The notes under the pieces: generated by a model
The model's input: only the letters and a program-made list of their open reading frames with translations
Databases searched by the model: none
Told to the model about the DNA's origin: nothing
Assembly (NCBI GenBank): GCA_019828595.1
Contig: JAHQRK010000002.1
Span: 3,348,001-3,412,000, forward strand
Length of the DNA stretch: 64,000 nt
Direction: 5' to 3'
Source of the DNA: Aphanomyces cochlioides
Taxonomy: Eukaryota > Oomycota > Saprolegniomycetes > Saprolegniales > Verrucalvaceae
Shown here: one piece after another, positions 1 to 47,018 of the stretch
Layout: each line of letters opens with the position of its first letter
Position numbering within the stretch: position 1 is the first letter of the stretch
Made by a program: the position numbers and the translations under genes

Positions 1-3000
1 CTGCGGCTTCACGAGACATGACACGATGCGATCCACCGAGAAGCGAACGCCAACTGCACGAACTGTCGGCAGTTGAATGCGAGCTGCGGGGAGGCGATAC
101 TTTGCCACGAGCGCGTCGTAGCGTCCTCCCTCGGCAACGATTTCATTTTGTTGCGTGACAACTTGAAACATGAGTCCCGTCGCGTATTGCTCTTGCCGCA
201 AGCCCAAGTCGAGGCGAAGTGGGATAGTCTTGATATCAGACACAAGAGCTTTCAAGTTTTCAACACCGAGGAGGGCGTCATGGAGCGATTTTCGTAATTG
301 GGAGTCGCGCTTTTGTTCACGCTTACTTCGTTTCGTACTGGAATGACCGAGCTGTGCCATCGCCTGCACGAAGAACGTCTCGACCGAGCAGAGAGCTGCC
401 ACTGGTTCTCGAGGCAAGTGAAAAAAGTGCTTCAAGATATCGCACGCCGACTCGGAGATGGAAGCTTCGACGAGTTTGCGGGCGACGAATTTCCATCGTC
501 CAGTCGATGCAACATTAGTTTCCTAAAGGAAAATATTAATAATGACACATACAACTCGGAACACAATCCTACTTGAGAGAGCCACCTTAAAACATCGCGG
601 CGAGTCGCAACGGGGACGTCGCACATGTCCAGAATACCTCTAGACAGCCTAGCGTCGCTTAAGCGTACGTAGGAGGTTGTGAGGAGACCAAACGACTCGA
701 AAGCTTGTCGGACAACATGGAGAACCTCCATCTCCATAATTCGACCCGTGTGTTTTTCATCCCACACCAAGTCAAAGTCGGCTTCAAATATCTCTCGAGG
801 ATGGCCTCCGCTCACATTCTTGCGAAAGACACGTCCAAACTGGTATCGCTTCATTTGAGTCACGCCATTGCGGGCGATAAATCGGGCCAAGGGTTCCGTG
901 AAGTCAAATGGGAGCATGACAGTCACGCCAGCAGCGTCCAAGAGAGCACATCTATTCACATGGAGGGCACAACTTGGTCGTTTCGGCATAAGCAAAGGTG
1001 TCACGAGTTCGACGGCACCGTGCTGCTCAAACACTTTCTACAAAGAACTGTGTGAAACCAGAAGAGTGGTAGAAATGTACTCGAAGATGCTTGTGAACAA
1101 ACGATCGACCATGTCCATCATGGTACAACGCCGCTGCCTTTTGCTTGTGTACGCCATCAAAAGTATAATCGACGTGGTCCACAGGTTCTTGTACAAAGAG
1201 AGCTTGCATCATTTGGCCGAAGAAATGACCTTTCGGATTCGCAAGCGTTTGCAGAGCTTCCTTCAGGTATTTCTCCTCGACTTCCATCTTTGCTGGGAGC
1301 ATATTCGACGCGAGGAGTTCCGCAGCCGTTGGTCGATTCGCTGGGTTTGGTGCACAGAGCCAATGAACAATTGTTTGGACATTTTGAGGGGCTTTCCAAT
1401 TCGGAGGACACTGGTTCCTCTCCCGCAGATCCATCAGCGCTTCGGCTCGCTCCATGAGAGTTGTAAATGGCGGAGACCACATTTCAAAGAACAAAATCCC
1501 GAGCGAAAACATATCAGCCTTTTGATTGTATCGCTGGCCTTCTTTTTCTTGCTCTGGCGCACGGTAGAACGCAGTACCTACACCTGCCGTGATGTTGAGA
1601 CTCTCGTAAGACACTGTCATGTCTGGAGAGCGCTCTTCGTCATCTTCATCATCATCGTCGTCGTTATCGCGCGTGCTATCGTACGTAGGAATATTTTTCA
1701 AGCGGTCTACGCTCAACGAAGGTTGGTTTAATTCCTTCAGCGAGACGTCTTCGTCGGCTTCGTCATGGGGCACTGTCCTCAGGTCTTTTGGAGGTTTGGT
1801 CGCCAGACCAAAGTCACCCAATTTGACTGTGCCTTCAGCATCCAGAAATATGTTTGGGGGCTACAGGAGCAGATATTTTTTCTTCAACACAATCGAAAAA
1901 GCGTACCTTAATGTCTCTATGGATCACGCCTTGACTGTGAATATACTCAATTGCTTCGACAATCTGACGAAAGAGTGTCCAGACTTTTTCTTCGCATTGC
2001 CATAAGTCATGCTGGTCAATCACATCGCGCAATGTATTGCCACCACAGTACTCCATCTGAATGTACAGCTTTTCGTTGGCACGTTTCAATTTCCTTGGTT
2101 GATGAGTATGTGGTCGATGCGCGTCGATGGTCCATTCCCATTGCTCGCCTTCGTCCGAATCCACGTCGCTGCTGCTTTCTTCTCGCAGCAGCATATGTGC
2201 TGTGGATGCTGACCTTGGCTTGTTTACAATCGATGATGTTTGGTTGCGAGATCGACTATTCCCAAGCCAATCGTCATCATCGTCATCGTCGTCATCATCG
2301 CTAGCTGCGCGACTATCCGAGGACCAGATATCATCGTCTTCGTCGTCATCATCTTCGCTGTCTGACATATTGTCGTCGCCGCCTTCAATCCATGCTTGAA
2401 AGTATCGGACAATATGGCGATGCTGTAGTCTTGAAATCGTTTTGACTTCTCGCAAGAGCTTTTTCTTCATGGTTGGATCGTTTGAGTCCAATTTAATGCG
2501 CTTGACAGCGTACCATTGCCTGTCAAGGCGATTCTGGACCTTGATGACTTCACCACCACCACCACGTCCAAGTACTTTATCTTCTTTGAAATCATTCCAA
2601 TATCGAGAGGATGATATTATGCGCTTGCCACCTTCGTACTCCGAGTCGTCGGAATCGTTCACAGACGAAGAAGTTTCAGATGATGAAATTTCACTCTCTG
2701 ATGAGTCATCCTTGGACGCCAGAGTTGTTGCAGCGATTGATTTTCGTGCTGTCGTTTGCATCTTGACTTTCTTTTCAATGTCAGCTTGGATCACACGCTG
2801 CATTTGTTGTTCTTCTTGCAAAGCCAATTGTTTTTCAAGCTCTTCTTCTTTCCGTCGCGCAGCTTCCTCCGCTTCAGCTTGCTTTTGCTCTCGCTGAACC
2901 ATTCGGTCGAAGAACGACCGCTGATCCTTGATGTGTTTCTGTAAAAACTCTTTGGCTGCATCAATAAGATCGTACACCATAACTTCTTCACCAACTTTTT

Positions 3001-3400
3001 CGCGGCTCAATCGTTGGATCATCTCTTCCAGCTCAACAGCTTCCGAGTCGGTAAGGCCATCAAACGCTTCGATATCGATTTCTGGCACATCCACAAGAGG
3101 ATATCCCTTTCTCAATTGGAAGCGGATATTAGCAGTTGCTTTGCCTTGAATATCTTGACCGTTAGAGCTTAAAAAGTCGCTCTGTGCTTTCACGGAGATG
3201 GAAAAGGCAGGAAACCCTTTGATGCTTTTTCGCGGCTCATATTCGGAGTCAAATATCGCTTGGAGAGCTTCCATTTCGACCTCTTGCATCGAGCGACATG
3301 ATGATAGTGTTTCCTCACTTACAGCTTGCGAAGGAACGTCGAGTTTCGCGGCATTTGCCTCCTGTTTCCTCCGCTGCTTTTGCTTCTTCTTGTTGCCCAT
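1..3400 (-). CDS. GCN2: GCN2-type eIF2-alpha kinase, 3' end cut by window edge
   Basis: Amino-acid-starvation kinase that phosphorylates eIF2alpha. Inferred exons: 3400-1907, 1860-1081, 1037-573, 522 to beyond 1; introns are 46, 43 and 50 bp, each GT-AG. The visible part is about 1087 residues. An RWD domain (about 38-155, the GCN1-binding module) is followed by a charged coiled coil (160-225) and a Ser-rich linker. The kinase starts near 270 with a Gly-rich loop (GRGGGGEV) and ATP-binding Lys300. A long Asp/Glu insert lies inside the N-lobe, as is usual for eIF2alpha kinases. HRDIKPPN is interrupted by intron 1, and GDFGLA follows. After the kinase comes a HisRS-like domain (LVTPLLMP, FGRVFRKN, EGGRYDAL) that is still open at base 1. 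The HisRS-like region senses uncharged tRNA in the family. The order RWD-kinase-HisRS makes the assignment safe. Confidence 0.95.
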
Positions 3401-8710: not shown

Positions 8711-11700
8711 TTATGCTTTCTTGTCTTCAGTTAAGCTCTGAGCGCTGCTTCCGCCTTGGGATATGGCACTCAAGTTCAAGTTGTTGGGATGGTCGCAAGA
8801 TGCTGCGCCGGGGGATTTCGGTCTTGGAACAATCTTGGCCACGCGGTCAACCATCGTTTTATGAATGGGTGGAGGTGGCATTTTCGATTTCATGCGGGAG
8901 CAGTAGACAAATTCCTTGACAATGTCGGCCGGCGTCGGGAAGAACATGACGCTGGCAGCGCGAACGACGTATGTGTAGAACAGGATGAGCACGACGACAA
9001 ATGGTGCAGCGAGCCAGACGACATGATGCGCCACGGTAAATTGCAACATGTTGGCCCAATTTATCCCCGAGAGCATGTTCATTTTCGAGGAGACGAACGC
9101 CGTGGCAACCCACAGCACGATCGATCCCACGAGGAAGATGGGATTGAAGATGAAGAACCGATGGTGCATGAACAAGAGCTTGGCGTTGGCCGTCACAATC
9201 ACAAGCGAGAAAACTATGTTGCCAAGGAACCAAAGCCCTGGACTGTCACCGTAGATGCCACAACAATCGACGGCTGCCACGACGACAAGCGTGATGGAAA
9301 TCGCTTCGATCAAGGCACACATAACCCAGTAAGCAAAGACAGCATGGTTCAAGTGCATATTGAGCGGTCCAGCGCGGTACAGTGACGGCAATCGCAGCAC
9401 GACATGGTCGTAGACATCGTGATCCCAAACCGCCAGCGCAATGATCGGCAGCGACGTGAGCAGCACGTTGTAGAGCTGCGAGCCCGTCTCGAGGAAGATC
9501 TTCTGCCCCGATAAGCCCGCGTACGTCGTGTAGACAAACTGCGCCGTGATGAGCAAGATGTTCTTGTAGATAATGTAGAGCACGAGTTTCGCCAAGCGCT
9601 CATAGTTGGCGCGACCGTGGACAAGCAGTAGCCTCGTGAGGAAGGCAAACTGCGCAATGGCGTAGTCGCTAGCATTGACGGCTTGGAGCCCTTCCTGACC
9701 GGATATTCCAACGCCAATGTGCGCTTCTTGGATCATTGGCACGTCGTTGGCCCCGTCGCCGATGGCCAGCGTCCGACTTGTGGCAACGCGTTCTTTGACA
9801 AGCGCAACAAGTGCAGCTTTCTGCGCCGGAGAGACACGACATGCCAAGACAACTTTGCATCTCTGGGCCAGTTCGACAAACTTCGCAGGGCATGACGCAA
9901 GTGCATGGAGTACACACTCGCCGTCAATCACAAGCGCTAACGTCTCGTTTGACTTTTGGTTGAGTGAAATGCGCGATTGCGACACCGTACGATGTGATTT
10001 TGTTCGAGATCGACTGCGCAGACTGTTGCGAAGAGACCCTTGGCGCGTGACCAGCGGTGGCGCCGCTACGTGGACATTGTGGAGGCTGTCATGGATCTCT
10101 CGTACTGTCGCCTCCGACGTCGCACACTGCTTTGCCGTGATCGTCATGAGCCGCATGTCAATTTGGAGCAAGTTGCTTGCGTAGCCAATATTGACTGCTG
10201 TGTCGTCTTTGTCACCCGTGAGCATCCACACTTTAATGCCAGCGTCAATCAACGTCGCTAGGGCGTCAGGAACACCATCTTGGAGTTTGTCTTCGATCGC
10301 AGTCGCTCCAACAAGTCTCAAATCGGCTTCAAGGTCGTCCATGCACTTGTCGATTGCATTCGGAAGCGTTGCAGTTTTAAATTTTTCCATTTCGTCCATG
10401 GACGACAGCGCCGCTTGATACGTCTCGAGCCACTTTGTAAACTCTGCCGTAGGAATTTTTTTGCAGGCGACCGTGAGCGTGCGCAGACCTTCCTTGGCAA
10501 ACCCTGAAATATGCGCCAGCGTAATCTCGTTCGTTCGCAAGTCGTCGTCCGTTGTCGGTACTGTGACTCGAGGAAGCACGGCACCGTCGGCGCCTTTCGT
10601 ATAGAGCCAAATGACGTCATTGTCAACTTCACGGACCGCCATGGACATGCGTTTCCGCGTCGATGTGAATTCCAAATGGGCAAGAATATCAAATGTCCGC
10701 CTCGTGCCGCGTATTTCAACCGTGATGGAGCGTTGTGTTCGGTGGATAAACTTGAATCCAAAGAGCGCCGCGGCCGTCACGAGCGCTTGTTCGTCAGGAC
10801 TTGCCGCTGAATACCTCATCGTCCCCGGTGTCGTTGCCTTCATTGAGTTTTCGTTGGATTCGGGGAGAACGGTATGACAGACAGCCAAGATGGTAAAGAA
10901 GAGATCAATACGCTCGATTTGCTCCTGGGGGCCGGACTGCAAGTCCTTGAGCAGCTCAACGTCAGCGGTGTACGGCACCGACGCAGTTTTCTTGACCTTC
11001 GCCTTTGGAGTCAATGATTTCTTGGACGAGTCGGAGCGGGTGAGTCCTCGTCGCGTCGGTTTGACCATGCCTTCAGGTTTCGTCTGGCCATAGGAAATGC
11101 CGCCGATAGAGCACTTGCGGAATTCCATCATGTTGCACGTGAGCGTGCCCGTCTTGTCGGAGAAAATGTGGCTAATCTGTCCAAGCTCTTCGTTGAGGTT
11201 CATCGTCCGGACGACCGCTGGCGTGTTCGACGGCGCGTAAAACATCGCGACGTCCCACGCGATGAACAAAGCTTGGAGGTATTTCACCGTCGCCATCGAT
11301 ACGTACAGCGAGATCGGGATGAATTGGTACATGAGCAGCACATAGTAGAAGAACGACGTCAACCATGTCACGAGGGGGTTGGCAGGCGGCGGAAGCATCA
11401 AGTACGGCGTATGGCCAGCGTGGAAGTTGAGCCAGAGGAGATTCCCCGACGCGGCGATCGTACAGCACGCGACCAAGAGGAGGACGAGCACCAGAATGTA
11501 CTGGTTGATACAAACGTCCAGGCGGCTTTGCTTGGATGTGCTTGGCTTATTGCTCTGCATGATCTTCGTCTCCGGGCCAGTGCTCAAGACAAAGCCGTAG
11601 ATGGATTCCGTATTGCGCAGCGTCGACCCACGGAGAAGAATACTCGAGATCGGGATGGCAATCTTCGTCACGCTGCTCCTTTCTCGATTGTCGTCGGTGG

Positions 11701-12430
11701 CAGCAGAAGGAGCAGTGGGAGTTTCTAACGACAAGACTCCCTTGAATGAATGGATCAAACTATTCGGTGACTCGGCGAGAATGTGGCCACGCAGTCGATG
11801 TAGATCTGGAGGAGTGGCGCAAATCGACGCTGTCGCTTCTAAGGCTTCGCGGACTTTCATGTTGGTTTCGCCGTCCAATGACTTGGTTTCCACATACGCC
11901 ATGCCAGAATCAACACCGGGAACGCTAATTAGCAACAAATCTGCGGGGACCACGTCGCGATTGAAGAGCTGGACGTAGTCACCGACTCGGATGTCCGCCC
12001 ATTGCCGAGATACAAACGTTTCCGCTTCAAGAACGTGAGTGGTACGGCTATTGGCGACGGCGTCTGCAAGGTGCCGCTTGCGGTCCTCAGTGATGGCAAA
12101 TGTGGCATCAATGAGGAGGATGAAGAGAAGTGTCGGAAGAGTCGCGGGGAGACCGTTTGTATTGCTGATTGACGTGATGCATTGCATGATGGAGACGACG
12201 AGAAAATAGCAATTGGCTGCTTTTCGGAACGATTCGAGTAGAAAGAGCGGCAAAAACGTCGCGGGTTTGTACTTGAATGTGCGCACGTGGTTGGAGCAAT
12301 AGTGTGCATTCTGCGCCGAGTCGTGGAGAGAAATATGACGTCGGGGGGTCTGATTCGTGCTTGGTTCTTGGCTCACCGTCGACGACGCCCAACGTGAGAT
12401 CCCCATGACGACGGCGGCGACTTCCCACAA
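8711..12430 (-). CDS. P4-type ATPase (phospholipid flippase)
   Basis: A single uninterrupted 1239-residue ORF. P4-ATPases move aminophospholipids from the outer to the cytosolic leaflet of Golgi, endosome and plasma membranes. The N-terminal flippase signature is present (FKYKPATFLPLFLLESFRKAANCYFL, seen around 53-77). The actuator motif DGET lies at 186-189 and the phosphorylated Asp at 425 in DKTGTLT. KGADGAV marks the nucleotide-binding domain, followed by LTGDK, and the hinge GDGANDVPMIQ begins near 891. About ten TM helices are visible, with a cluster of six after the P domain. Family lengths are typically 1100-1300 aa, so this copy looks complete. Partner CDC50 proteins are not seen in the window. 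The absence of introns contrasts with the intron-rich neighbours. Confidence 0.95.
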   Translation of the reverse strand: MWEVAAVVMGISRWASSTVSQEPSTNQTPRRHISLHDSAQNAHYCSNHVRTFKYKPATFLPLFLLESFRKAANCYFLVVSIMQCITSISNTNGLPATLPTLLFILLIDATFAITEDRKRHLADAVANSRTTHVLEAETFVSRQWADIRVGDYVQLFNRDVVPADLLLISVPGVDSGMAYVETKSLDGETNMKVREALEATASICATPPDLHRLRGHILAESPNSLIHSFKGVLSLETPTAPSAATDDNRERSSVTKIAIPISSILLRGSTLRNTESIYGFVLSTGPETKIMQSNKPSTSKQSRLDVCINQYILVLVLLLVACCTIAASGNLLWLNFHAGHTPYLMLPPPANPLVTWLTSFFYYVLLMYQFIPISLYVSMATVKYLQALFIAWDVAMFYAPSNTPAVVRTMNLNEELGQISHIFSDKTGTLTCNMMEFRKCSIGGISYGQTKPEGMVKPTRRGLTRSDSSKKSLTPKAKVKKTASVPYTADVELLKDLQSGPQEQIERIDLFFTILAVCHTVLPESNENSMKATTPGTMRYSAASPDEQALVTAAALFGFKFIHRTQRSITVEIRGTRRTFDILAHLEFTSTRKRMSMAVREVDNDVIWLYTKGADGAVLPRVTVPTTDDDLRTNEITLAHISGFAKEGLRTLTVACKKIPTAEFTKWLETYQAALSSMDEMEKFKTATLPNAIDKCMDDLEADLRLVGATAIEDKLQDGVPDALATLIDAGIKVWMLTGDKDDTAVNIGYASNLLQIDMRLMTITAKQCATSEATVREIHDSLHNVHVAAPPLVTRQGSLRNSLRSRSRTKSHRTVSQSRISLNQKSNETLALVIDGECVLHALASCPAKFVELAQRCKVVLACRVSPAQKAALVALVKERVATSRTLAIGDGANDVPMIQEAHIGVGISGQEGLQAVNASDYAIAQFAFLTRLLLVHGRANYERLAKLVLYIIYKNILLITAQFVYTTYAGLSGQKIFLETGSQLYNVLLTSLPIIALAVWDHDVYDHVVLRLPSLYRAGPLNMHLNHAVFAYWVMCALIEAISITLVVVAAVDCCGIYGDSPGLWFLGNIVFSLVIVTANAKLLFMHHRFFIFNPIFLVGSIVLWVATAFVSSKMNMLSGINWANMLQFTVAHHVVWLAAPFVVVLILFYTYVVRAASVMFFPTPADIVKEFVYCSRMKSKMPPPPIHKTMVDRVAKIVPRPKSPGAASCDHPNNLNLSAISQGGSSAQSLTEDKKA

Positions 12431-16898: not shown

Positions 16899-18444
16899 AT
16901 GCTGAGGATCGCGGCATGGACTTGTTTGCTGGCGCTGGCCAACGTTTCCTGCGGAGAGCCAACATACAAGCAGCGCGAACCAGTTTGGACAAGCGATGCG
17001 TCCCCCATGCTCTACTCTGCAGCTCTTCCCATGAGTGTTGCTGAAACTGTGACGAATGCCCAAAGTTTTAGTCAAGCAATTGGAATCCATGTCGTGGAGA
17101 GTCTACCTGTTGGCGACTTTGAGCTCTTGCCATTACCAGGAAGCAAGAATACAGCTGAAGCTTTGGTAGAGCTCATCGATAGTGCATTGCATCGATTGGA
17201 TATTTTTGCAATGTATTGGAATCTTCTTGGAGAGGAAGATCGCGGCGAGCACTCACCTGAAGAGATGAAACGATTCGGAGCTGATCGAGGCGTTGCCGTC
17301 TTCAATGCAATTGAGCGTGCCACTCAACGCGGCGTTCCGGTATACTCCCCCCAGCCCACTTTGTTCATTTTGTCCGTAGGTTCGTGTCATTGGATCAAGC
17401 AACCCGGCGTTTGCACCAAATGAGCTCGACAAACTACAAGTGCAGCTTCGTCTGTGGAACTCCTCTCACTGGTACGGCGGCGGTATCATGCATCAGAAGA
17501 TGGTCATCGCTGATGGACAACACGCTTACGTTGGAAGTGCCAACATGGATTGGAAATCTCTGGCTCAGGTGATGGAAGTTGGTGTTGTCATTGAGTCCAC
17601 TCCGGCGGTGGTCGAAGACATGGCTCGCCTCTTTGAGCTCTGGTGGCTCTGGTCTGGTCCAACTGCACCCCTGGGAGCGCCTGTCGATGTGTTTGTTGAG
17701 AAATTCCAGTGCACTTTGCGTCTGCCACGTTGGTCTTCCTTTGTTCCACCCCAGTGGCGTCAACCTAGTCCATTCAGGTCACCTTCACTGAGCTCCTCCT
17801 ACAACAAAGACAACCCGATGTCCGTCGTCTGGAATGATGAAGCATCGAATGTGTTTATCACAGCTTCTCCAGATGCAGCCACTGCCAAATCTCGCACGCT
17901 GGACGAAGACGGACTCGTGTACACGATCCAAAGTGCCAAGGAACGAGTGAGCTTGAGCGTCATGGACTTCACTCCATTTTCGACATTCCCTATTGAAACA
18001 CTCAAAGAAGGATCAATCTACTGGCCAGCTTTGACCGATGCAGTCCTTAGCGTAGTCTACGCTCGTCCTGTTACGGTTCGCCTTCTCATCAGTCAGTGGT
18101 TACACTCAAGTCAAGTCATGATCCATGGTCTCAAGCTTCTCAAGGGGCAGGCAGATCTTTGTGTCAAGTGTCCTGGAAGCCTCGAGATTCGACTTATGCA
18201 AGTCCCAGGATGGAATCAAACGGAGGCGCCTCAATCGACGTGGCCTCAATACTCCCGTGTGAATCACGCCAAGTACATCGTGACCGACCAGCGTGCGAAC
18301 ATTGGGACGAGCAATATGGAGTGGGGCTATTTCTACAACACCGCCGGCACGAGTCTCAACACGGACAACAAGTATGTCAAGGACGCACTGCAGCAAATCT
18401 TTGATCGCAATTGGAACTCGCCGTATGCCAAGCCTCTCCCTTAA
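16899..18444 (+). CDS. Secreted/endolysosomal phospholipase D family protein (PLD3/PLD4-like)
   Basis: Exons 16899-17339 and 17380-18444, joined by a 40-bp intron, give 501 aa. Residues 1-19 form a signal peptide (MLRIAAWTCLLALANVSCG). Two HKD motifs are visible: HQKMVIADG beginning at about 185, followed by GSANMDWKSL, and HAKYIVTD at about 443, followed by GTSNMEWGYF. Both HxKxxxxD cores are intact, so an active phosphodiesterase is expected. The length and luminal layout match PLD3/PLD4, which in animals act as 5'-3' exonucleases on nucleic acid ends in lysosomes. Substrate here is unproven. The start is only about 40 bases downstream of the dead Crypton, so the promoter may lie within or beside element DNA. 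A second, unrelated PLD-like gene is at 35961. Confidence 0.88.
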
Positions 18445-35960: not shown

Positions 35961-37997
35961 ATGACAAGTTCGCGGCGTCTCCTCGCGTGGTGGTCGATCG
36001 TGCGTCGTGTCGTGTGGACGGCTGCTGCCGAGTCGATCGTGTGCTCCAAAGTGACGTCGTTCACGAGCTTGCTCACGTACTGGTGTATCTGCACGCCGTG
36101 TCACTTGTGCTATTACAATCTCGCCACGGGATGCCAAGTCGATACGTCGCATGCCGTCACGCTGAGCGATGGCCACGATATTCCAACGCGGCAGCCATCT
36201 CTCGCTCCATCCGACTGGTTTCTCACCACGGACGAGGTGACAAAAGCGCGCATGGGCGTGCCGCGCACCGACTTGACGACCTTCACGACCAACGACGCGG
36301 TGCATGTATTTGCAGCGACCAACGAGTATTTCCGCGCCATCTACGACGACTTGGCATCGACAAATGCCAACGATTCCGTCTTCTTCAATGGATGGTCGCT
36401 AGCCAACGTGCCCTATCTCCCCGACGTCGATCCATCCGTGACGGTCAAATCCGTCTGGGGGGGATCTCATCGCGCGCCAAGCGCAATTCCGCGGCCTGCT
36501 CTTTGAAAACTTGGAGGTACGTACGTCGCTCGTGCAGTGTCTTCACGACGCAGACAGTAGGGAGCTTCGAGCATGACCGACATGTTCAATTGGTTCAATG
36601 GCCTACTGCCAGCTCTGTCGTCGTCGCCAGGTAGTCAATTCGTCCTGGACGACCGCGTCCTGGCCATCTCGGGGGCGTTGCACCAGAAATCCACCGTGAT
36701 TCAAAAGGCAGACGGCGGCGTACATTGGCGGCGTCGACCACGACCTCGATCGATGGGATACAAAGTTCCACAACGTCTCGGGCGTTCGCAATGCATCCCA
36801 AATTCGGCAAAAATACAATGGCTGGGTCGACGTCCATGCGCAAATCCGCGGCCCCGCGGCGCAGGATATCTTGGGCAATTTCGAAAGTCGATGGAATGAT
36901 CCAGCCATGCCGTCCATCTCGGCGGCGTTCAAGCTTCTCGCGTCGCCCAACTCTGCGTATGCCAATTCGCCCAAGCAAATTTCTTCCTCAGCGCCATGGA
37001 ATGCAAATAGCGGCGGACCGCATGCAATCCAAATCGTGCGCACGTATAGCTGCACGTACGGCGGCTACAAACTGTTTGCGCCGCGGGGCGAGACTTCCAT
37101 CTTGGCGGCGCGGATCAAGGCGATTCAGCAGGCGAAAAACTTGATCTACATTGAAGACCAGTATTTCATCGACGTCCCCGACTTGACCGCGGCATTGCTG
37201 GCCGTCTTGCCGACGATTCAACGCCTTGTCGTCGTCACGTGCGAGCGCAGCCGCATGTCGACCGCCGTCGGGTATGAAAAGTATTTGTACGACTTGGTCG
37301 CGCCGCTGCAGCAAAAATTCCCCCACAAGTTTCAACTGTACAAGACGCCCACGGACATTTACGTCCACACCAAGGTGCTCCTCGTCGACGATGTCTTCTT
37401 GTCTGTCGAGTCGAGCAACTGGAACGTCCGCAGCATGACGTCCGACGCCGAAAAAATCGCCGCCAATATCGTCGACAATGGCACGCTTGTCCAGCAGGAA
37501 ACCATTGTCGTGGCAACACTAGCGCGACAATTTCGCATCGACAAGTTTGGCGAGCTGACACGCTTTTCGGTGGATTTTTCAAACTTGACGTACGTCCAGG
37601 CGGCCGACGCGCTGGCCAACTACGCCGCGATGCAGCCTGATGCGTTCATCACACCGTTTGTCGTGCAGTACGAGCTCTACTTTGAGCTCTACGCGTCGGC
37701 CAAAGCTATTTTCGACGGCGATGGGCGATGTTTCGACACGTCGGCCGATTTCTGCGCGACCGTGACGTCCAACGACTACGACGTGCTCCAAATCGCCTGC
37801 CAGTGCGCTCGCGACAAGATGGATCTCAGCGTCTGTCCGGCCATGGTCAACTACAACAGCAACCAAGTCGCAGCTCAAATCAACACGACCAAGTTTCACA
37901 AAGTCCTCGCATCGTCGTCGTCGTGGCCATCATCGTCGCCATGGCCATTTCCATCGTTTGCATCCATCGCAGGTGCTGCAAGAGGAATCGACGATAG
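35961..37997 (+). pseudogene. Phospholipase D-like gene with three single-base frame breaks
   Basis: It reads as a PLD-like membrane protein over about 660 codons. Exon 1 (35961-36516) has a hydrophobic N-terminal segment, then SHAVTLSDGHDIPTRQPSLA, SDWFLTTDEV and VFFNGW. Exon 2 begins at 36561 after a 44-bp intron. Frame breaks: (1) the 7-G run at 36457-36463, where six Gs would keep the frame into ARQAQFRGLLFENLE; (2) about 36705-36720 at GGCGGCG, just after the first HKD-type His (LHQKSTVI), where the frame changes to reach YIGGVDHDLDRWDTKFHN; (3) about 37905-37912, where a base appears missing before a C-terminal TM (VVVVAIIVAMAISIVCI) and the tail RRCCKRNRR. The second HKD-type site is YVHTKVLLVDDVFLSVESSN. 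No stop codons accumulate otherwise, so this is either a young pseudogene or a gene hit by consensus errors. Confidence 0.75.
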
Positions 37998-38302
37998 TCG
38001 AAAACGAATCCGACCGCGACGCTGCCTGACGAAAAGCCAAGCAGGAATGTGCCTTCCACTTGGATAAAGCAGTAAATATCCAAGTGGAAGACATGGGTAG
38101 AGCTTGTAGACATTGCTAGAAGTGTCAAGCAGCTCCATGACGACCATCGCTTGATCCTTTGGACGCAGTGTTGTAGATAGGTGGAGCGCAACGAATTTCA
38201 CGTTTGGACCATTGTTGACGCTTAGTCGAGCTCAAAATATAGCTCGCAGCACTCGACACACAGCGTGATCGCACATTCTGGACCAAGGATGGACGTTGCA
38301 GA

Positions 38303-39422: not shown

Positions 39423-42400
39423 ATGGCGAGCTCGGGTCGTCGTCGGCGGCGGCGGCGTTTGCATGCTGTTCATCGCAGATCGACGCTTGTTGTGCTGCTG
39501 CTGTTGCTCGCACCGTCAACATGTGGGCAGACGAGTTATTCGCCAGGACGAGCCGACACTCGCGTGGAAGCGTTGCGACTCAACAATTCGTTTTCATGCG
39601 CCGGTGGACCGACGCTGTGTCCTGACGCCGGCACGTTCAAATACGCTGGGGGCAACCTCACAATCACAATCGTCGAGATGCGCAATTTGCCACAACTGGA
39701 CCACTTTGGACCGTTTTCCCTCGAGACAGATGCCTTCATTACCGTCTCGTTTGGCGTCGATGTGCTCTCGACGGCGCCATTCCTCAATAGCCTCAACCCC
39801 GTCTGGCCTCCATGCGCGCAGCCAGGATGCCGCGGCGCGTCGGACATCCACCGCGACTTGACATTTGGCTTTCGACCGTCCGGGACGCCGTTCACGCTGA
39901 CCGTTTGGGATTACGACGACGGCCTGGAATTCGCCAACGATTTCATCGGCAGCATGACGCTCCATGTCATTTACTGCTCGGCGTTTACGAGCATCGCGCA
40001 GCCGACGCCCCACGCAGGCCACGATTCCTCGTTTGCGATGCCAAAACAACCTCTGTGCGTCGAGGAAATTTGGCTCCCGCTCGCTCCTGGCACTTGTTTT
40101 GATGCCAGCGGCAACGCAACGTCCACGCCGTGCATGCGGCTGCGGCAAACCGTCGTCCCGTTCCAAGTGAAATTTGAGGAAACCTTTGTCACGAACGCAC
40201 TCATGGCCGGCGGCATGGGCGGGTACTACGCGGCCACGACATCGAGTCTTTATGGCCGCGTGTGGACGCCGGGCGACCAGCGGCTGCAGAATTATTACAA
40301 AATGTCGAGTTGCCAAGGCGGCATTCTCGTCCGTCCCGACAACACGCGCGGGATGAACAACAATCCCGGCAATGCGTCGCTCATTCCCCGCTTCGGCTTT
40401 GCGCCATTTGCCCGCTTCACGATCAACTTTGACGCGACCATGTACGTTTTCCGCCGCGCGACAGACGTGGCGACCGACTCGATCGTCGGCACTTTGGAAT
40501 GGCTCGATCCAAAATTTGGATGGACGACGCAAAAGCAAGAAGCGGCGCAGCTTGTCGGCGTGGCGGAAGATTTTCTCGCGGTTTCCAAAGACGTGAATGC
40601 CCATGTCGTGAATCAATATGGCGACGCGCTCGGTGCTGGCGTCGTCACGGGCGTCAATATCCAGCAAAAGAACAACGACGTCACGCTCTCCATGTACTTC
40701 ATCGTCATGGTGCCAAAGGTGCCAGGGCTTGGAACGCCTGCCGTGTACTCGAAAGAGTTTTCTCGCGGCGCTTTTCTCCTCTCGGCGCTTCAATTTGGAC
40801 CGTCGTTTGCATTGTTGCTCTTCCTCGCCGTGCGCTACTGCCGCATGATGCACTTCCGCCTCGACCGCGTGCCATCGTACTTGGCAACGCTCGCAACAGC
40901 CGACAAGAAATCGCCGTCCATCGTCGCCATGTTGTTTCTCTGCTACGAGCGATCGCCGGCCAATGTCGACTTTCGCCGGAATTTGTTTTACGCAACGTGG
41001 GCCGTCCGTGTCTGCTTGGCGTCGCCGTTCTTCGTGCTCATCACATGGGGCGCGACGGCGATTTCGACCGTCCAGCCTCCCGCCGTCGGCTTTTTCCTCC
41101 TTTTTGTCGGCTCGGGCGGCCTCGTCGGACTCTACGCGTGCTTGAAATGGCGGCGGATGGGCTGGCGCATGACGCGCGAGGTCATGGCGTGCTTGGCGAC
41201 TGCTTGCGTCTGCGGCTTTTTATTCTTGTTTTGCTCGATTTTCGCCGACCCGCGCGTCTTTGTCGGCGGCCAAAGCATCGAATTCTTCAGCTTGACGGCG
41301 TTTTCGCTCACGCTCAACATGGTGCCGATGATCTGGCTCACATTTACCAACGACAGCAAGATCATGAAGTCGCTCGCGCAAGTGCTGGCCGTCGTCACGG
41401 TCGGGAAAAAGGTCGGGCTGCTCAAGAAGAAGTTTAAAAATCTCGGCACGGTCGGGCTCAAGTTGGCCACCGCGACGGAATCGCTGCGGCACGAGCGCGG
41501 CATCCAACCCGTCTCGCCGTTCGACGCGCTTCTCGGGAGTTACTACTCGATCGTCCGGACGATTCCAGGGTTTGCCATGGCGGATATCCTCCAGTCGGCG
41601 TTTGTCAACGACAAGCCCCATCATGCGAATCGCAAACTCTACGGCGCGGCCGTCGCCATCCTCGTCGCGTATGCCATCGTCGGCTTTGTCCGGAGCGAGT
41701 ACCCCACGCAGGGCATGGGCATTCTCGTCACGGTGCTCCTTCTCGACGCGACGCTTGGGCTTGTGCTGCGGGGCCATTTAACCTGGTCTGCCGGGTATAT
41801 TTCGCTCCTCATGGGCTTGTGCCGCGTGAGTTTGGCGGCAACGTGCGGCAAATATTGGCTCCTTGGACAGACCATGAGCTTTGCGATCATGGGCGGCGCG
41901 CTGTGTCGTGAAATCGTCGGGCGGAATCTCCCACGGATGAGCGCCCAGGAAGCTGGCGGGATTACATTTTTCGGCCACGAAGTCGCGCATGAAAAGCTCT
42001 TGGATATCAGCGCGACGCCAGAGTTTGGTTTGGGCTTTCTCTCCTTCTTCTTTTTGTTTCTCCTCGTCACGGTCGCGTTTGTCGGCGACAATTCCGTCAA
42101 ATTGCCCGTCCTTGGTCAATTCTGGCCGCTGTGGGTCTTTGGCGTCTTGAGTTTTGTCCTCGTGCTCTTCACGGGCATCGCGCTCGCGAGTTCCCGCGCC
42201 TTCTTCCTCATGAAGCAGCGCTTGCTCTCCGAGTACGCCGCCAACGTCTACTTGTACAAGCGTGGCTTTCATCTCCCGTTTATTCTCGCCGCGGGGTCCG
42301 AGCTGCTCGTCGTCATGTCGGGCCTTTTCCTCTTCGCGGCGACAAATTCATCGTTCATCCTGCTCTTGTCCATCTTCTCGCCCGTGCTGCTCATGCTCTC

Positions 42401-45400
42401 GACGGTCGTCTTTGTCCAGTGGCGGAAAAATGACCATCGGCTCGTCGTTTGGCCACCGGAAGACGACGACGACGATGTGGACGACGACGAATTTGACGAA
42501 GAGACCGAGTTTGCCAAGGAAGCCGACGCGATGCGCAACACATTTGTCCTGCCACCGCTGCGGCAAGCGAACGACGTGGCCGCTTCGACGGGGGAATTTA
42601 AAATGCCGCCTCTTCCTGTCTTGAAAGGCCATGCCAATCTCGGCGCTGGCGTCGCGTCGGTGCTTCAACTCGCTGGGAAAGCTGGACCTGCCGCCACGAC
42701 ATCTCGAGAGGAAGACGAGATGGAAGCTGCTGCCAAGGAAGCCGACGCTGCCGCGCAAGCCAAGAGCGACAAGGTTGTCGAGTTAGAAGCAGGTCAAGGC
42801 GACAATCCTGCCGCCGGTGGCGACACCAAAGAGCCAACGAATGCCGTCGTCGTCGTGGAGGCTCCACCGCCGGCGCTGCAATCTGGATGGCGCGGCTGGC
42901 TCTTCAAGTGGATGACGCGGATTCCATGCCGTCGTCGGTGCCGGAGTAAAAAATACCACCACGTGGCCTCTCGCCGCGATACCGCCGCGACGACTGGCGG
43001 CGCCGAGGTGGATTTTGAAACCATGACGCTCTATCAAGCGTTCCGTCAAGGCTATCTTCTCCAGGAAGATTATTTAACGCTTGGTTGCTTTGGTGGTCTC
43101 GTCGGTTGCTTGTTTCTCTTTGGGTTGCTGGCGTCGTTGACGGAAGCGCCGTCGTGGATCGGCCATTTGATCTCGGTCGGCTCGATCGTGCTCCTCTTTT
43201 CTGCGTTTCCCGTCTTGAAATGGTACAACGTGCTTGAAATCACCACGGACATGAAGAGGAGCGTCGCGCTGAGCACGGTCATGGCATGGAGCATGGGCTT
43301 TTATCTCTTCTTTGGACCTCAAAAGATGCGGCTCGACGACGTGCAGTCGCTTTGGATCTTGACGATTTTAATCTTTTATCCGCTCGGGCTGCTCGTCGTC
43401 GTCGCGCTCTGCAAGTGGCACGACGACCACTGGATCCTCTCCAACTTTGTGCGGCAGGCGGGCATCGTGCTCACGGGCGTCGCCCCCGTCTTCCTCTTTG
43501 AAATGTACATTTGGGGGAGCCTCCCGACGGGCGGCGCGTTGACATTTGTGCTCTTCACGACGTACACGACGATCTTTTTCCTCCGCCAGTGGGTCCGCAA
43601 CGATTATTACCTCGCGCCAAAGTTCCAGCGGCTCGCGCATCGACTCATCCTGAGCTGTGCGGTCGGCTTTGTCTCGCTGGCGGTCGTCGCGGGCGTCAAC
43701 GTTTTTTTCTGCTTTTCGATCGCGATGATCGTCCTCTTGCTCAAGTTTATCATCGACATCATTGCGATCCGCATGACGCGCGAGCCCGATGTCGTGCTCT
43801 TCTACTCGCCATACGTCTTTCCCATCTTCTCGTACAACGCCGCGACCAACAACGTCGTGGACGAGAAGAGCGAGACGCTCCACGTCTACTACGCGCTCTT
43901 GACGGCGTTCTTCTGGGGCTGCATCGGCGTTTTGTTCTTTGACCCGCTCGGCTTTGGCATTGGCCTCTGTTCGTTTGCCTTGCTCGCCTTCATCGGCTAT
44001 ACGGCGCATCTGTGCTCCGTGACGCCGGTGCGCCTCGGCATTGCGTCCAAGTACGTGAACGAGGCCATCCTGCGCGAAGCGAGCGTCGTGGCCAAGTCGG
44101 TCTTTGACGAACGACGGCAGCCGCTCGTGCTGGAATGCGTCGAATTTGTCGAGCGCGAACGGAGGGAGAAGGAAGCCGAGCTGGAATACCAGCGGCTCTC
44201 GTACGGCAAGAAAAAATCCGCGACGGCAGCGACAGCAGCAGCGCTGGAACTGGCACGAGATGCCAAGCCGCCGCGCACATCCGCCGCGGATTTTGCGCTT
44301 TTGATCGACGACACGCTCTGGCAATGCTCGAATCGCCTCAAGGAGGATGGAGCCGCCGCTGTCCGGCGCCACGACGCCTTCTTCACGTGGAAAGATGTCG
44401 TGATTGACATTGTCCAGCGAGGACGCGGGCCATTTGGGTACGTCGCGCTCTTTGGCTACGGCTACAAGGGCTACATGTTCGTCAAGCGCCACAAGTACTA
44501 CGACAGGATCAAGCATTTCTTCCGCCAGCATCTCTGGGCCGCACGATCGTCGGGGAATCGCCTTTTGCCGCCGCCAGTTCCAACCGCCACGTCCGTCGAC
44601 GGCCATGACGACGACAACGCTGCCGCCATCGAGGGACACTCTGAAAGCGACGACAAAGGCCATGGCGCTGTCGTTCTTTTTGAGCCGCCGAAAGGAGGAA
44701 TCGCAGACAAGGACGACGGCGACTTGGTCGATTCCATGCGCCATTTGCAATCGTTGCCGGGGATGGACGTCGAGCTGGACTATGAATTCTTTGAGGAAAC
44801 GCGCTGCATCATCCACTTCCAGCTCATGCTGCTCAACGCCGCGGACGCTCGCTTGTCGCGAGAACGCGTCTTGTTTCAAAAGTTTCTCCGCGAGAATCGC
44901 TTCAAGCTCATGTCGAACGGGATCAATCCGCCCGCGGAGATCTTCAAAACGTCGTCCCAGGCGTCGATTGACATTCCGCTCGTCGCGACGTGGCTCGTCT
45001 CGCTCACGCGCGAGGAGCGGCAGCGTTTCCATTCCCTCAAAGCGGCTTTCAGCATCGAAATGGATCGGAAAGATGCCATCATTGACGCCGAAGACGCCGC
45101 GAGCGTCGCGCATCAAGCCGACGTTGTCGCGTACTGGAAAACGCGTGAAGCCGACATGTGCCGCAAAATGTACGAAGAGAGCTTGGCGCGACGCCTTCGA
45201 CGGGAACAAGAAGGCATTGCAGTCGATCCATCGCTGCCGGAAGCGATCGTCAACGCCCAGGAAGCGATTGCCGAGATTGAATCGGGCTACGCATGCGTCG
45301 TCGGGCAATTTGGCCGCTCGCTGCAGTTCATTGACCCGGAATTTCCGCCCGACAGGTCGTCCATTGCCGGCTGCGCGCATGAGGCGGATGTCGTCGACTG

Positions 45401-47018
45401 GAGAGTATCGACGGCGATCAATATCACCGCGGGGCTGTTCGACGGCGGCACGGATCCAGACGACGTGCGCTATGGCCGGCTCAATGACGGCTGGTTCCTC
45501 AGCGCGGTGAGCATTTTAGCAGCGTCGGGCGGCATCGACGACGGCAAAGTCGATCCCGTCATTGACAATTTGTTCTTGACCAAGCAGACGTCGCTCACCG
45601 GCGCATATGCGATCCGTCTCTTCAAGAACTCGCAGTGGGAAACCGTGATCGTGGACGACTACTTTCCCGTCTTGGACGACAGGCACAAGATGGACATCAG
45701 CGCCGGCGCCGCGTTTGCGCACAGTCGGCATTTTGAAGAGCTCTGGGTGCCGCTGCTGGAAAAAGCGTACGCGAAATACTACGGCGGCTACGCGGCGCTC
45801 GAGCAAGGCTTTGTCCATCATGCGCTTGAAGCGTTGACGGGATATGCGTCGGAAGAGATCTTTTTGTCGCAAGCGTCGCGCGGCGCGCGCAAGAAAACGC
45901 TGTGGAAGTCGCTGCTGAGTCACAAGCGGAATCGGTTCTTGATGGGCGCCGGCACGATCACGAGCGACAACGCCGACCATGAAATCCTCGACACGGGGCT
46001 CGTCTTTGGCGCGTGCTACTGCATTTACGACATCCGTGAAATTGACGGCTACCAGTTGATCAAACTGCGCAATCCACCAGGCGATCATGCAGAATGGCGC
46101 GGCGATTGGGCCGACGATTCGCCGCTGTGGACGCGCCGCTTGAAGAAACACTTGGGCGTGACGGCCAATGCCAACGACAACACGTTCTGGATGAGCTTTG
46201 ACGACTTTTGCAACGCATTCCGGTGCTTGTACGTGTGCAAGTACTACGATCCGACCAAATGGACGACGCAAACCTTCCACGGCACCTTTAGCGTCGCGCA
46301 GGACACGGCAAGCGGGCTTCCCACGCGGCATAATCCAAATTGCACCGTCGAGAACAATCCCCACTACGCTCTGGACGTCACACGGCCGACAGAAGTCATC
46401 TTGACACTCATTCAAGTCGATAAGACGGGCTTGGCACCTGTCATGGTGCTTCCCGTCGCCATTTACATCGTCCAGAGCTCCATGGCGGATCGTGCGTCGC
46501 GGGTAAAAGTCTTGGAGAAGACCAATGTCGTCAAACACAGCGGTCAGCCGGTCCGAGAGCGTCGAATCACCTTGCAATGTACGTTGAAAGCTCGGACATA
46601 CGCAATCGTCGTCGCAGCGTATCAAAAAGGCATGGAGGGGCCGTTCCAATTGACGATCCAAACAAATTATGCGGTCGAGATGGAGCAGATATGGCCAGCC
46701 GTGTGGCGCGAGCCGAAACAAATGACCCGTGTTGAGAAAATGGCCCTCAAGCTCAAAGAGACTGTGGAGGATACGGTCGCGGCAAAGAAACTCGTCGAGC
46801 AAGCCAACAAGTACAAGAATCGGATCGCGGCGGGGCTTGACAATGCGCTTGAAGACGAGTCGGATCAGGTCGCCGAGCTCGAGCAGGCCGCCGCCGCTGA
46901 AGCCAAGAAGGCGAAGAAGAGCCCATGGATCGAGCAGTGGGACGACGCGCAGAACAAGCCGTACTACTTTAACAAGGAGACGGGCGTCTCGCAGTGGGAA
47001 ATCCCGCCTGACATGTAA
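39423..47018 (+). CDS. Giant DEK1-like membrane pseudo-calpain with C2 and WW domains
   Basis: A single-exon 2531-aa ORF. A signal peptide (basic start, then LVVLLLLLAPSTCG) is followed by a C2-like domain (about 78-250: GNLTITIVEMRNLP, LTVWDYDD, NDFIGSMTL). Then come about 22 hydrophobic helices in two blocks, split by an acidic, low-complexity loop with DDDDDVDDDEFDEE at about 1014-1030. A calpain CysPc-like domain begins near 1970 (INITAGLFDGG, YGRLNDGWFLSAVSILA, VIVDDYFPV, LWVPLLEKAYAKYYGGY). A C2-like calpain domain III follows, and a WW domain closes the protein (WDDAQNKPYYFNKETGVSQW). Compared with QGxLGDCWFL and GLVxGHAYS, the catalytic Cys is Gly (2023, codon 45489-45491) and the His is Ala (2197). 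The Asn is kept (2217, LRNPPG). So proteolysis is not expected. The layout parallels plant phytocalpain DEK1. Minus-strand ORFs here are antisense shadows. Confidence 0.9.
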   Translation: MASSGRRRRRRRLHAVHRRSTLVVLLLLLAPSTCGQTSYSPGRADTRVEALRLNNSFSCAGGPTLCPDAGTFKYAGGNLTITIVEMRNLPQLDHFGPFSLETDAFITVSFGVDVLSTAPFLNSLNPVWPPCAQPGCRGASDIHRDLTFGFRPSGTPFTLTVWDYDDGLEFANDFIGSMTLHVIYCSAFTSIAQPTPHAGHDSSFAMPKQPLCVEEIWLPLAPGTCFDASGNATSTPCMRLRQTVVPFQVKFEETFVTNALMAGGMGGYYAATTSSLYGRVWTPGDQRLQNYYKMSSCQGGILVRPDNTRGMNNNPGNASLIPRFGFAPFARFTINFDATMYVFRRATDVATDSIVGTLEWLDPKFGWTTQKQEAAQLVGVAEDFLAVSKDVNAHVVNQYGDALGAGVVTGVNIQQKNNDVTLSMYFIVMVPKVPGLGTPAVYSKEFSRGAFLLSALQFGPSFALLLFLAVRYCRMMHFRLDRVPSYLATLATADKKSPSIVAMLFLCYERSPANVDFRRNLFYATWAVRVCLASPFFVLITWGATAISTVQPPAVGFFLLFVGSGGLVGLYACLKWRRMGWRMTREVMACLATACVCGFLFLFCSIFADPRVFVGGQSIEFFSLTAFSLTLNMVPMIWLTFTNDSKIMKSLAQVLAVVTVGKKVGLLKKKFKNLGTVGLKLATATESLRHERGIQPVSPFDALLGSYYSIVRTIPGFAMADILQSAFVNDKPHHANRKLYGAAVAILVAYAIVGFVRSEYPTQGMGILVTVLLLDATLGLVLRGHLTWSAGYISLLMGLCRVSLAATCGKYWLLGQTMSFAIMGGALCREIVGRNLPRMSAQEAGGITFFGHEVAHEKLLDISATPEFGLGFLSFFFLFLLVTVAFVGDNSVKLPVLGQFWPLWVFGVLSFVLVLFTGIALASSRAFFLMKQRLLSEYAANVYLYKRGFHLPFILAAGSELLVVMSGLFLFAATNSSFILLLSIFSPVLLMLSTVVFVQWRKNDHRLVVWPPEDDDDDVDDDEFDEETEFAKEADAMRNTFVLPPLRQANDVAASTGEFKMPPLPVLKGHANLGAGVASVLQLAGKAGPAATTSREEDEMEAAAKEADAAAQAKSDKVVELEAGQGDNPAAGGDTKEPTNAVVVVEAPPPALQSGWRGWLFKWMTRIPCRRRCRSKKYHHVASRRDTAATTGGAEVDFETMTLYQAFRQGYLLQEDYLTLGCFGGLVGCLFLFGLLASLTEAPSWIGHLISVGSIVLLFSAFPVLKWYNVLEITTDMKRSVALSTVMAWSMGFYLFFGPQKMRLDDVQSLWILTILIFYPLGLLVVVALCKWHDDHWILSNFVRQAGIVLTGVAPVFLFEMYIWGSLPTGGALTFVLFTTYTTIFFLRQWVRNDYYLAPKFQRLAHRLILSCAVGFVSLAVVAGVNVFFCFSIAMIVLLLKFIIDIIAIRMTREPDVVLFYSPYVFPIFSYNAATNNVVDEKSETLHVYYALLTAFFWGCIGVLFFDPLGFGIGLCSFALLAFIGYTAHLCSVTPVRLGIASKYVNEAILREASVVAKSVFDERRQPLVLECVEFVERERREKEAELEYQRLSYGKKKSATAATAAALELARDAKPPRTSAADFALLIDDTLWQCSNRLKEDGAAAVRRHDAFFTWKDVVIDIVQRGRGPFGYVALFGYGYKGYMFVKRHKYYDRIKHFFRQHLWAARSSGNRLLPPPVPTATSVDGHDDDNAAAIEGHSESDDKGHGAVVLFEPPKGGIADKDDGDLVDSMRHLQSLPGMDVELDYEFFEETRCIIHFQLMLLNAADARLSRERVLFQKFLRENRFKLMSNGINPPAEIFKTSSQASIDIPLVATWLVSLTREERQRFHSLKAAFSIEMDRKDAIIDAEDAASVAHQADVVAYWKTREADMCRKMYEESLARRLRREQEGIAVDPSLPEAIVNAQEAIAEIESGYACVVGQFGRSLQFIDPEFPPDRSSIAGCAHEADVVDWRVSTAINITAGLFDGGTDPDDVRYGRLNDGWFLSAVSILAASGGIDDGKVDPVIDNLFLTKQTSLTGAYAIRLFKNSQWETVIVDDYFPVLDDRHKMDISAGAAFAHSRHFEELWVPLLEKAYAKYYGGYAALEQGFVHHALEALTGYASEEIFLSQASRGARKKTLWKSLLSHKRNRFLMGAGTITSDNADHEILDTGLVFGACYCIYDIREIDGYQLIKLRNPPGDHAEWRGDWADDSPLWTRRLKKHLGVTANANDNTFWMSFDDFCNAFRCLYVCKYYDPTKWTTQTFHGTFSVAQDTASGLPTRHNPNCTVENNPHYALDVTRPTEVILTLIQVDKTGLAPVMVLPVAIYIVQSSMADRASRVKVLEKTNVVKHSGQPVRERRITLQCTLKARTYAIVVAAYQKGMEGPFQLTIQTNYAVEMEQIWPAVWREPKQMTRVEKMALKLKETVEDTVAAKKLVEQANKYKNRIAAGLDNALEDESDQVAELEQAAAAEAKKAKKSPWIEQWDDAQNKPYYFNKETGVSQWEIPPDM

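Follow-up and report, generated by a model that had tools for sequence, protein, structure and literature searches.

Plant DEK1 joins a membrane region with a central loop to a calpain core (CysPc), which has an active catalytic triad, and to calpain domain III. In Arabidopsis, a stretch-activated calcium current needs the DEK1 transmembrane region, and in a line expected to make a DEK1 truncated after its transmembrane spans the current inactivates 6–8 times faster (PMC5647327; the papers cited by PMC number are represented here by passages of their text). Self-cleavage is reported to free the DEK1 calpain (PMC5647327), and a Cys-to-Ser change abolishes the function of plant DEK1 (PMC10762896). 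Here we describe a 64,000-nucleotide stretch (the window) of the oomycete Aphanomyces cochlioides, from NCBI GenBank assembly GCA_019828595.1, contig JAHQRK010000002.1, positions 3,348,001 to 3,412,000 of the forward strand. The plus-strand open frame at window positions 39423..47018 encodes a stramenopile membrane-anchored pseudocalpain of 2531 amino acids, a DEK1-like protein in which the Cys and His of the triad are replaced. The host genome comprises 76.2 Mb in 94 contigs.

The architecture of such proteins and part of the loss are already in print, and novelty is limited to that extent. Type 3 and Type 4 membrane-anchored oomycete calpains were described in 2023 in a paper that names Aphanomyces species and lists a WW-bearing form for Ectocarpus siliculosus (PMC10762896); together with the C2-TML-CysPc(-WW) calpains of Stramenopila described in 2012 (PMC3563603), they represent the closest known architecture. 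The 2012 paper also noted that catalytic residues are often lost, with Ectocarpus as one example. The passages of these two papers do not call the oomycete proteins dead as a group, unlike the present analysis. A report of July 2026 found Cys and His replaced, and Asn mostly kept, in DEK1-like calpains of brown algae and oomycetes, as they are in the window protein; it gave inactivity as a parsimonious reading for brown algae and also suggested a non-canonical triad (PMC13413365). Its passages are without thraustochytrids, Cafeteria, chrysophytes, the losses of Trp and Gln, the retention of calcium ligands and the membrane profile homology. Our additions are a wider clade, kept calcium ligands and membrane homology to DEK1. 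Beyond the cited papers, a stramenopile-wide loss with kept calcium ligands was absent from the best-ranked titles and abstracts of our searches, which took in few subscription journals.

Calpamodulin (calpain-6) is an animal protein and, in this differing from the window protein, is not known to have an anchoring membrane region. It shares a dead calpain core with the window protein, as do other non-peptidase calpain homologues (PMC4631099, PMC3563603), and is cited as microtubule-stabilising (PMC3563603). Its origin is separate, from a calpain-5 duplication in vertebrates (PMC4631099).

The open frame and its catalytic centre

The frame runs from ATG to TAA (39423..47018; all features below lie on the same strand) with no internal stop, giving 2531 residues plus the stop codon. 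In-frame Met codons lie upstream of the chosen start, so the exact start codon is uncertain; the chosen start aligns 1:1 with an Aphanomyces euteiches protein that is 93.5% identical over its full length. Long antisense frames are also present opposite the gene. A sequence-only reading of the stretch had proposed one uninterrupted DEK1-like frame with four named domains, and these were all recovered by Pfam: C2 at residues 77–181 (39651..39965; 27.9 bits, cut-off 22), the calpain core as Peptidase_C2 at residues 1969–2273 (45327..46241; 208 bits, whole model covered), domain III or CBSW as Calpain_III at residues 2294–2412 (46302..46658; 27.5 bits, cut-off 21) and WW at residues 2500–2528 (46920..47006; 42.3 bits, cut-off 26.9). 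The protein ends in CysPc plus domain III as DEK1-type calpains do, apart from the added WW, and the presence of both C2 and WW fits the Type 4 membrane-anchored calpains of PMC10762896.

At the codon level, the two replacements named in that reading are confirmed. GGC encodes Gly2023 at the nucleophile Cys position (45489..45491) and GCG encodes Ala2197 at the catalytic His position (46011..46013), with the third triad member kept as Asn2217 (AAT, 46071..46073). Further changes fall in the same centre: the oxyanion-hole Gln is Tyr2017 (45471..45473), the active-site Trp of the NPW motif is Pro2219 (46077..46079) and the Gly of LGDC is Asn2021. In the predicted model, the active-site helix begins at Gly2023, and paired strands lie between Ala2197 and Asn2217.

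These changes were followed through an alignment of 131 rows, made up of the window protein, 120 listed relatives (the best 120 of 128 hits), nine further plant DEK1s and an intact calpain from the same genome. Two database searches were run, about 8000 candidates being scored in each, and one of them gave the best 120 of 347. The best-scoring 110 of the 120 listed relatives are without the nucleophile Cys, and the ten lowest-scoring have it. These 110 and the window protein form a dead set of 111 rows, near-copies and partial proteins such as P0111 included. Absence of Cys defines the set; the independent facts are that its members are exactly the 110 best-scoring rows and that they group together in the trees. 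The catalytic His is absent from all 110 readable rows, as is the active-site Trp (Pro in 108, Ala in two); the oxyanion Gln is present in 29 of 111 and the triad Asn is kept in 108 of 110 readable rows. All five residues, the Cys included, are present in each of the 20 other aligned rows.

Within the dead set, the nucleophile position is Gly in 35 rows, Ala in 27, Ser in 15, Glu in 10, Thr, Asn, Gln and Asp in five each, Leu in two, and Ile and Tyr in one each. It undergoes 30 state changes on a 65-row tree and stands at the 9th percentile of conservation within the core domain. The varied residues argue for drift, with no common replacement nucleophile. Rows P0002–P0008, among them four Aphanomyces species, Saprolegnia and Achlya, carry the same Gly and Ala as the window protein. 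The sequence-only reading had asked whether orthologues share the changes: they share the loss of Cys and His, and the residue that replaces Cys varies. Orthologues with both residues intact, which would have spoken against it, were not found among the 120 listed relatives. The calpain core is catalytically dead by sequence, as that reading had proposed.

The dead set extends widely through the stramenopiles. Its oomycetes are Aphanomyces, Saprolegnia, Achlya, Pythium, Globisporangium, Lagenidium, Phytophthora, Nothophytophthora, Plasmopara and Albugo; other named rows are the thraustochytrid Hondaea, Cafeteria, Ectocarpus, Chrysoparadoxa and two rows called chrysophytes by their source. NCBI taxonomy places Hondaea and Cafeteria in Bigyra and Chrysoparadoxa in Ochrophyta, all of them stramenopiles. 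In a tree of 48 rows (42 dead, six intact), the dead rows lie on one side of a branch with support of 96/94 that appears in 94% of 200 bootstrap trees. For this tree, eight columns at the catalytic centre, changed neighbouring positions included, were removed, P0081, P0109 and P0110 were left out and ten chosen rows were restored; the intact set is small, with six rows after thinning, and has long branches. A quick tree of 65 of the 131 rows, from which rows more than 78% alike or short and four catalytic columns had been dropped, agrees, grouping the dead rows with support of 95. With the dead rows in one clade, and DEK1 and the other intact rows beyond it, a single loss of catalysis that predates the split of the sampled stramenopile lineages is the simplest reading. 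Stramenopile copies that still have the whole triad may have escaped the searches.

Calcium-ligand positions, core and membrane region

To the kept parts of the core belong most of its calcium-site positions. Asp2252 (46176..46178) lies in the region of calcium site 2, and we take it, from calpain-1 structures, to be a calcium ligand. With the site definitions of PMC4631099, Asp2014 (45462..45464) and Glu2106 (45738..45740) occupy ligand positions of site 1, and Glu2224 (46092..46094) and Asp2231 (46113..46115) those of site 2. All five residues are present in the window protein, and all five positions are acidic in 91 of the 111 dead-set rows.

The retention of 37 columns that are identical in six diverse intact calpains was scored in the dead set. 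The lowest are the Cys, His and Trp (0% each) and the Gly of LGDC (2%), followed by Leu2202 (9%), Gly2253 (17%), the Gln (26%) and the Ala after the His (26%). Gly2070 (41%), Asp2137 (52%), Leu2173 (66%) and Leu2138 (88%) are also reduced. Three calcium-site columns are kept at 92–93%, and the remaining 22 columns, Asn among them, at 94–100%. Conservation was assessed in 33 chosen dead rows, which also served, with 28 chosen intact rows, for the membrane and linker profiles. Across the core, 61 of 311 columns are conserved at 95% or more. CysPc is the most conserved domain in eight of nine species compared, with identities to the window protein, from Aphanomyces invadans through to a chrysophyte, of 93, 85, 73, 68, 67, 58, 54, 47 and 47%; the sole segment to exceed it is the WW of A. 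invadans (94%). The core of most rows retains the calcium-ligand residues and the fold, and it may bind calcium.

The DEK1-like character proposed in the sequence-only reading is borne out by the membrane region. C2 is followed, ahead of the calpain core, by two hydrophobic blocks with an acidic loop between them: membrane region A (residues 448–1002, 40764..42428), homologous to the first part of the DEK1 MEM, and membrane region B (residues 1203–1565, 43029..44117), homologous to its second part, both delimited by profile, hydropathy and model. The loop between them (residues 1003–1202, 42429..43028) is poorly conserved and mostly of low confidence in the model. Profile–profile comparison of the membrane region with that of DEK1 gave a probability of 100 and an E value of 4.2e-56 over 846 columns, against a probability of 48 over 33 columns for the reversed control, and the homology to plant DEK1 is collinear. 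A crude hydropathy count finds 18 membrane segments in this region, with one further false call in domain III, and the predicted model has 25 helices of at least 17 residues there; the figure of about 22 transmembrane helices given in the sequence-only reading is therefore fair. Membrane region A has one match in its own genome in a genome search.

Elsewhere the two proteins appear to differ. DEK1 has a laminin-G-like linker domain, and its architecture as given in passages of PMC10762896 shows no C2 or WW. In the window protein, the linker (residues 1566–1964, 44118..45314; defined by profile comparison and conservation) is well conserved within the family in its C-terminal half, and no laminin-G domain was detected at the sequence and profile level (no Pfam match in the protein; probability 0.5 for the linker against the DEK1 linker profile).

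The N terminus (residues 1–35, 39423..39527) is predicted from its sequence to be signal-peptide-like, the uncertainty of the start codon applying to it. The N-terminal region that follows (39528..40763) has six conserved Cys (59, 66, 185, 212, 225 and 237), each present in 30–33 of the 33 chosen rows, and five Asp of the C2 domain are kept in 30–31 of them. The C2 domain would sit outside the cytosol.

What the core may do

Our reading is that a stramenopile DEK1-type calpain turned non-peptidase before the lineages split and that its core is now tethered and regulatory; we give this explanation as a whole a probability of roughly 0.5. The identity of the protein as an ancient, dead DEK1-type calpain is close to certain. 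With the catalytic residues gone, self-release is not expected of the stramenopile protein, and its core, unlike that reported for DEK1, would no longer cut itself free and would stay tethered under the membrane region. Tethered there, it would bind calcium and change shape, serving the membrane domain in cis as a regulatory tail that responds to calcium, and also as a docking platform that holds partners. The WW would be an addition in part of the family, and the N-terminal C2 may sense or anchor at the outer side. Such a tethered calcium-binding pseudoprotease, tuning or scaffolding its own membrane domain, is a mechanism that we rate a little short of an even chance. More tentative still is the broader proposal that a stramenopile ancestor made the DEK1 protease a permanently tethered calcium-sensing pseudoprotease, with catalysis lost once and never regained as sampled, and with the calcium switch mostly kept.

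Several observations weigh against this explanation. Of the 111 dead-set rows, 18 have lost the site-1 Glu and 10, one of them partial, have lost the site-2 pair 2224/2231 (P0103–P0106, which are chrysophyte or chrysophyte-like, P0096, P0107–P0110 and the partial P0111); calcium control would therefore not be universal in the family. The poorly kept Gly2253, invariant in the six intact calpains and adjoining Asp2252, is Asn in the window protein; it is non-catalytic and near calcium site 2, and its change means that this site may be altered. The equivalent of calpain-2 Glu323, also in site 2, is Thr, although none of the 20 intact rows has Glu there. No known fold matched the membrane region. 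That Cys-to-Ser kills plant DEK1 implies that the protease is the effector in plants, and no non-proteolytic function of any DEK1 was met in the literature searched. In the literature read, a stretch-activated current that depends on the membrane region, the mark of a mechanosensitive calcium channel or its sensor, is reported for plant DEK1 alone (PMC5647327).

As a separate observation, the second calcium site is lost as a set in P0103–P0106, P0096, P0107 and P0108, a further evolutionary step taken by some members of the clade.

Two other roles for an inactive core deserve some weight, and we consider each unlikely. Dead homologues that regulate active ones are a common pseudoenzyme theme, and the protein could act as a decoy, controlling the cell's active calpain by binding that enzyme's substrates, inhibitors or partners. 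The same genome does keep a calpain frame, at locus L001, in which Cys, His, Asn and Trp are all intact. The change of Trp to Pro, with the altered surroundings, makes binding of the same substrates doubtful, however.

The other role makes the protein chiefly a WW scaffold, with the calpain fold as a spacer and the WW recruiting PPxY partners to the membrane; such recruitment was the emphasis of the sequence-only reading. The WW domain is clear, and it is highly similar in A. invadans (94% identity, as above) and 81% identical in Saprolegnia. It is annotated, however, in only 58 of 110 relatives, some of the others being partial, and is not annotated in five named ochrophyte rows, two of them partial; recruitment by the WW is not supported as the central function. 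At the aligned place it is absent from the chrysophyte row and two further rows compared, and in four other WW-bearing species its identity is 45–65%, against 58–73% for CysPc. A mere spacer would hardly keep so many core columns at 95% or more.

That the protein is still a protease through a shifted triad, an idea put forward for brown algae and oomycetes in PMC13413365, is highly unlikely on the sequence and on the secondary structure of the predicted model. Such a triad would combine the kept Asn with a Cys that precedes the usual site by about 39 residues and with one or two His that precede the usual His by about 64; by spacing, in a mapping of our own, the Cys and His are Cys1984 (or column 1986) and His2132/2133. 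Cys1984 and His2132–2133 exist in the window protein and are frequent in the family; 104 of 111 rows have one or both of the His. The Cys, in either of its two columns, occurs in 72 of 111 rows, however, and the complete triad in 68. Column 1984 stands at the 37th percentile of domain conservation, and six of the 20 intact calpains, near-copies of one protein, also have Cys there. Cys1984 lies in a loop in the predicted model, whereas Gly2023 starts the active-site helix and Ala2197 precedes a strand, and the scarcity of the oxyanion Gln (29 of 111 rows) also weighs against a shifted triad.

Decay of a core without function is harder still to credit: few columns of the domain vary more than that of the nucleophile (9th percentile, 30 state changes on the 65-row tree), but in eight of nine species no other segment is as well conserved as the remainder of the core. 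Sequencing error, an unspliced intron or a recent local mutation can be dismissed, as nothing was found in its favour and it is refuted by the relatives, namely the full-length A. euteiches match and the Gly and Ala shared by P0002–P0008.

Other calpains, neighbouring genes and meaning for the family

Other calpain-like frames were observed in the A. cochlioides genome. The intact calpain of locus L001 (1105–3147, contig C8) is an open frame of 681 amino acids without a multi-pass region; its one hydrophobic segment falls at the active-site helix region, and it offers an internal contrast to the dead calpain. A calpain-like frame at locus L004 (contig C6) reads LNDTWLL at the nucleophile, and this second calpain-like protein may also be dead. 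Exon pieces of a further calpain at locus L007 (contig C14) have GDCWFL and RNPWG intact.

Within the window, phospholipase D (PLD)-like frames lie at 36871–38067 and 17440–18444 on the plus strand, the nearer one upstream of the calpain gene. A database protein of Aphanomyces astaci (P0004) combines a PLD domain with a calpain, perhaps through a gene-model fusion, which would show conserved gene order. On the minus strand, 8711–12430 is a frame for a phospholipid-translocating P-type ATPase (flippase), and 1835–3400 one for a protein kinase with an RWD domain at its N terminus.

Annotations of these genes as calpain-type cysteine proteases probably misstate the activity of their products. A large eukaryotic group that has kept the DEK1 membrane region and the calpain fold without the catalytic residues amounts to a natural experiment, and the family addresses the standing question of how the two interplay. 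If these proteins are inactive, their role is non-proteolytic, a real departure from plant DEK1, and the in-cis role of the core becomes directly testable. If the proposed reading is true, the stramenopile family would represent a natural separation-of-function DEK1 and would reveal an older, non-proteolytic job of the calpain core in DEK1-type proteins, the gating or tuning of the membrane region in cis.
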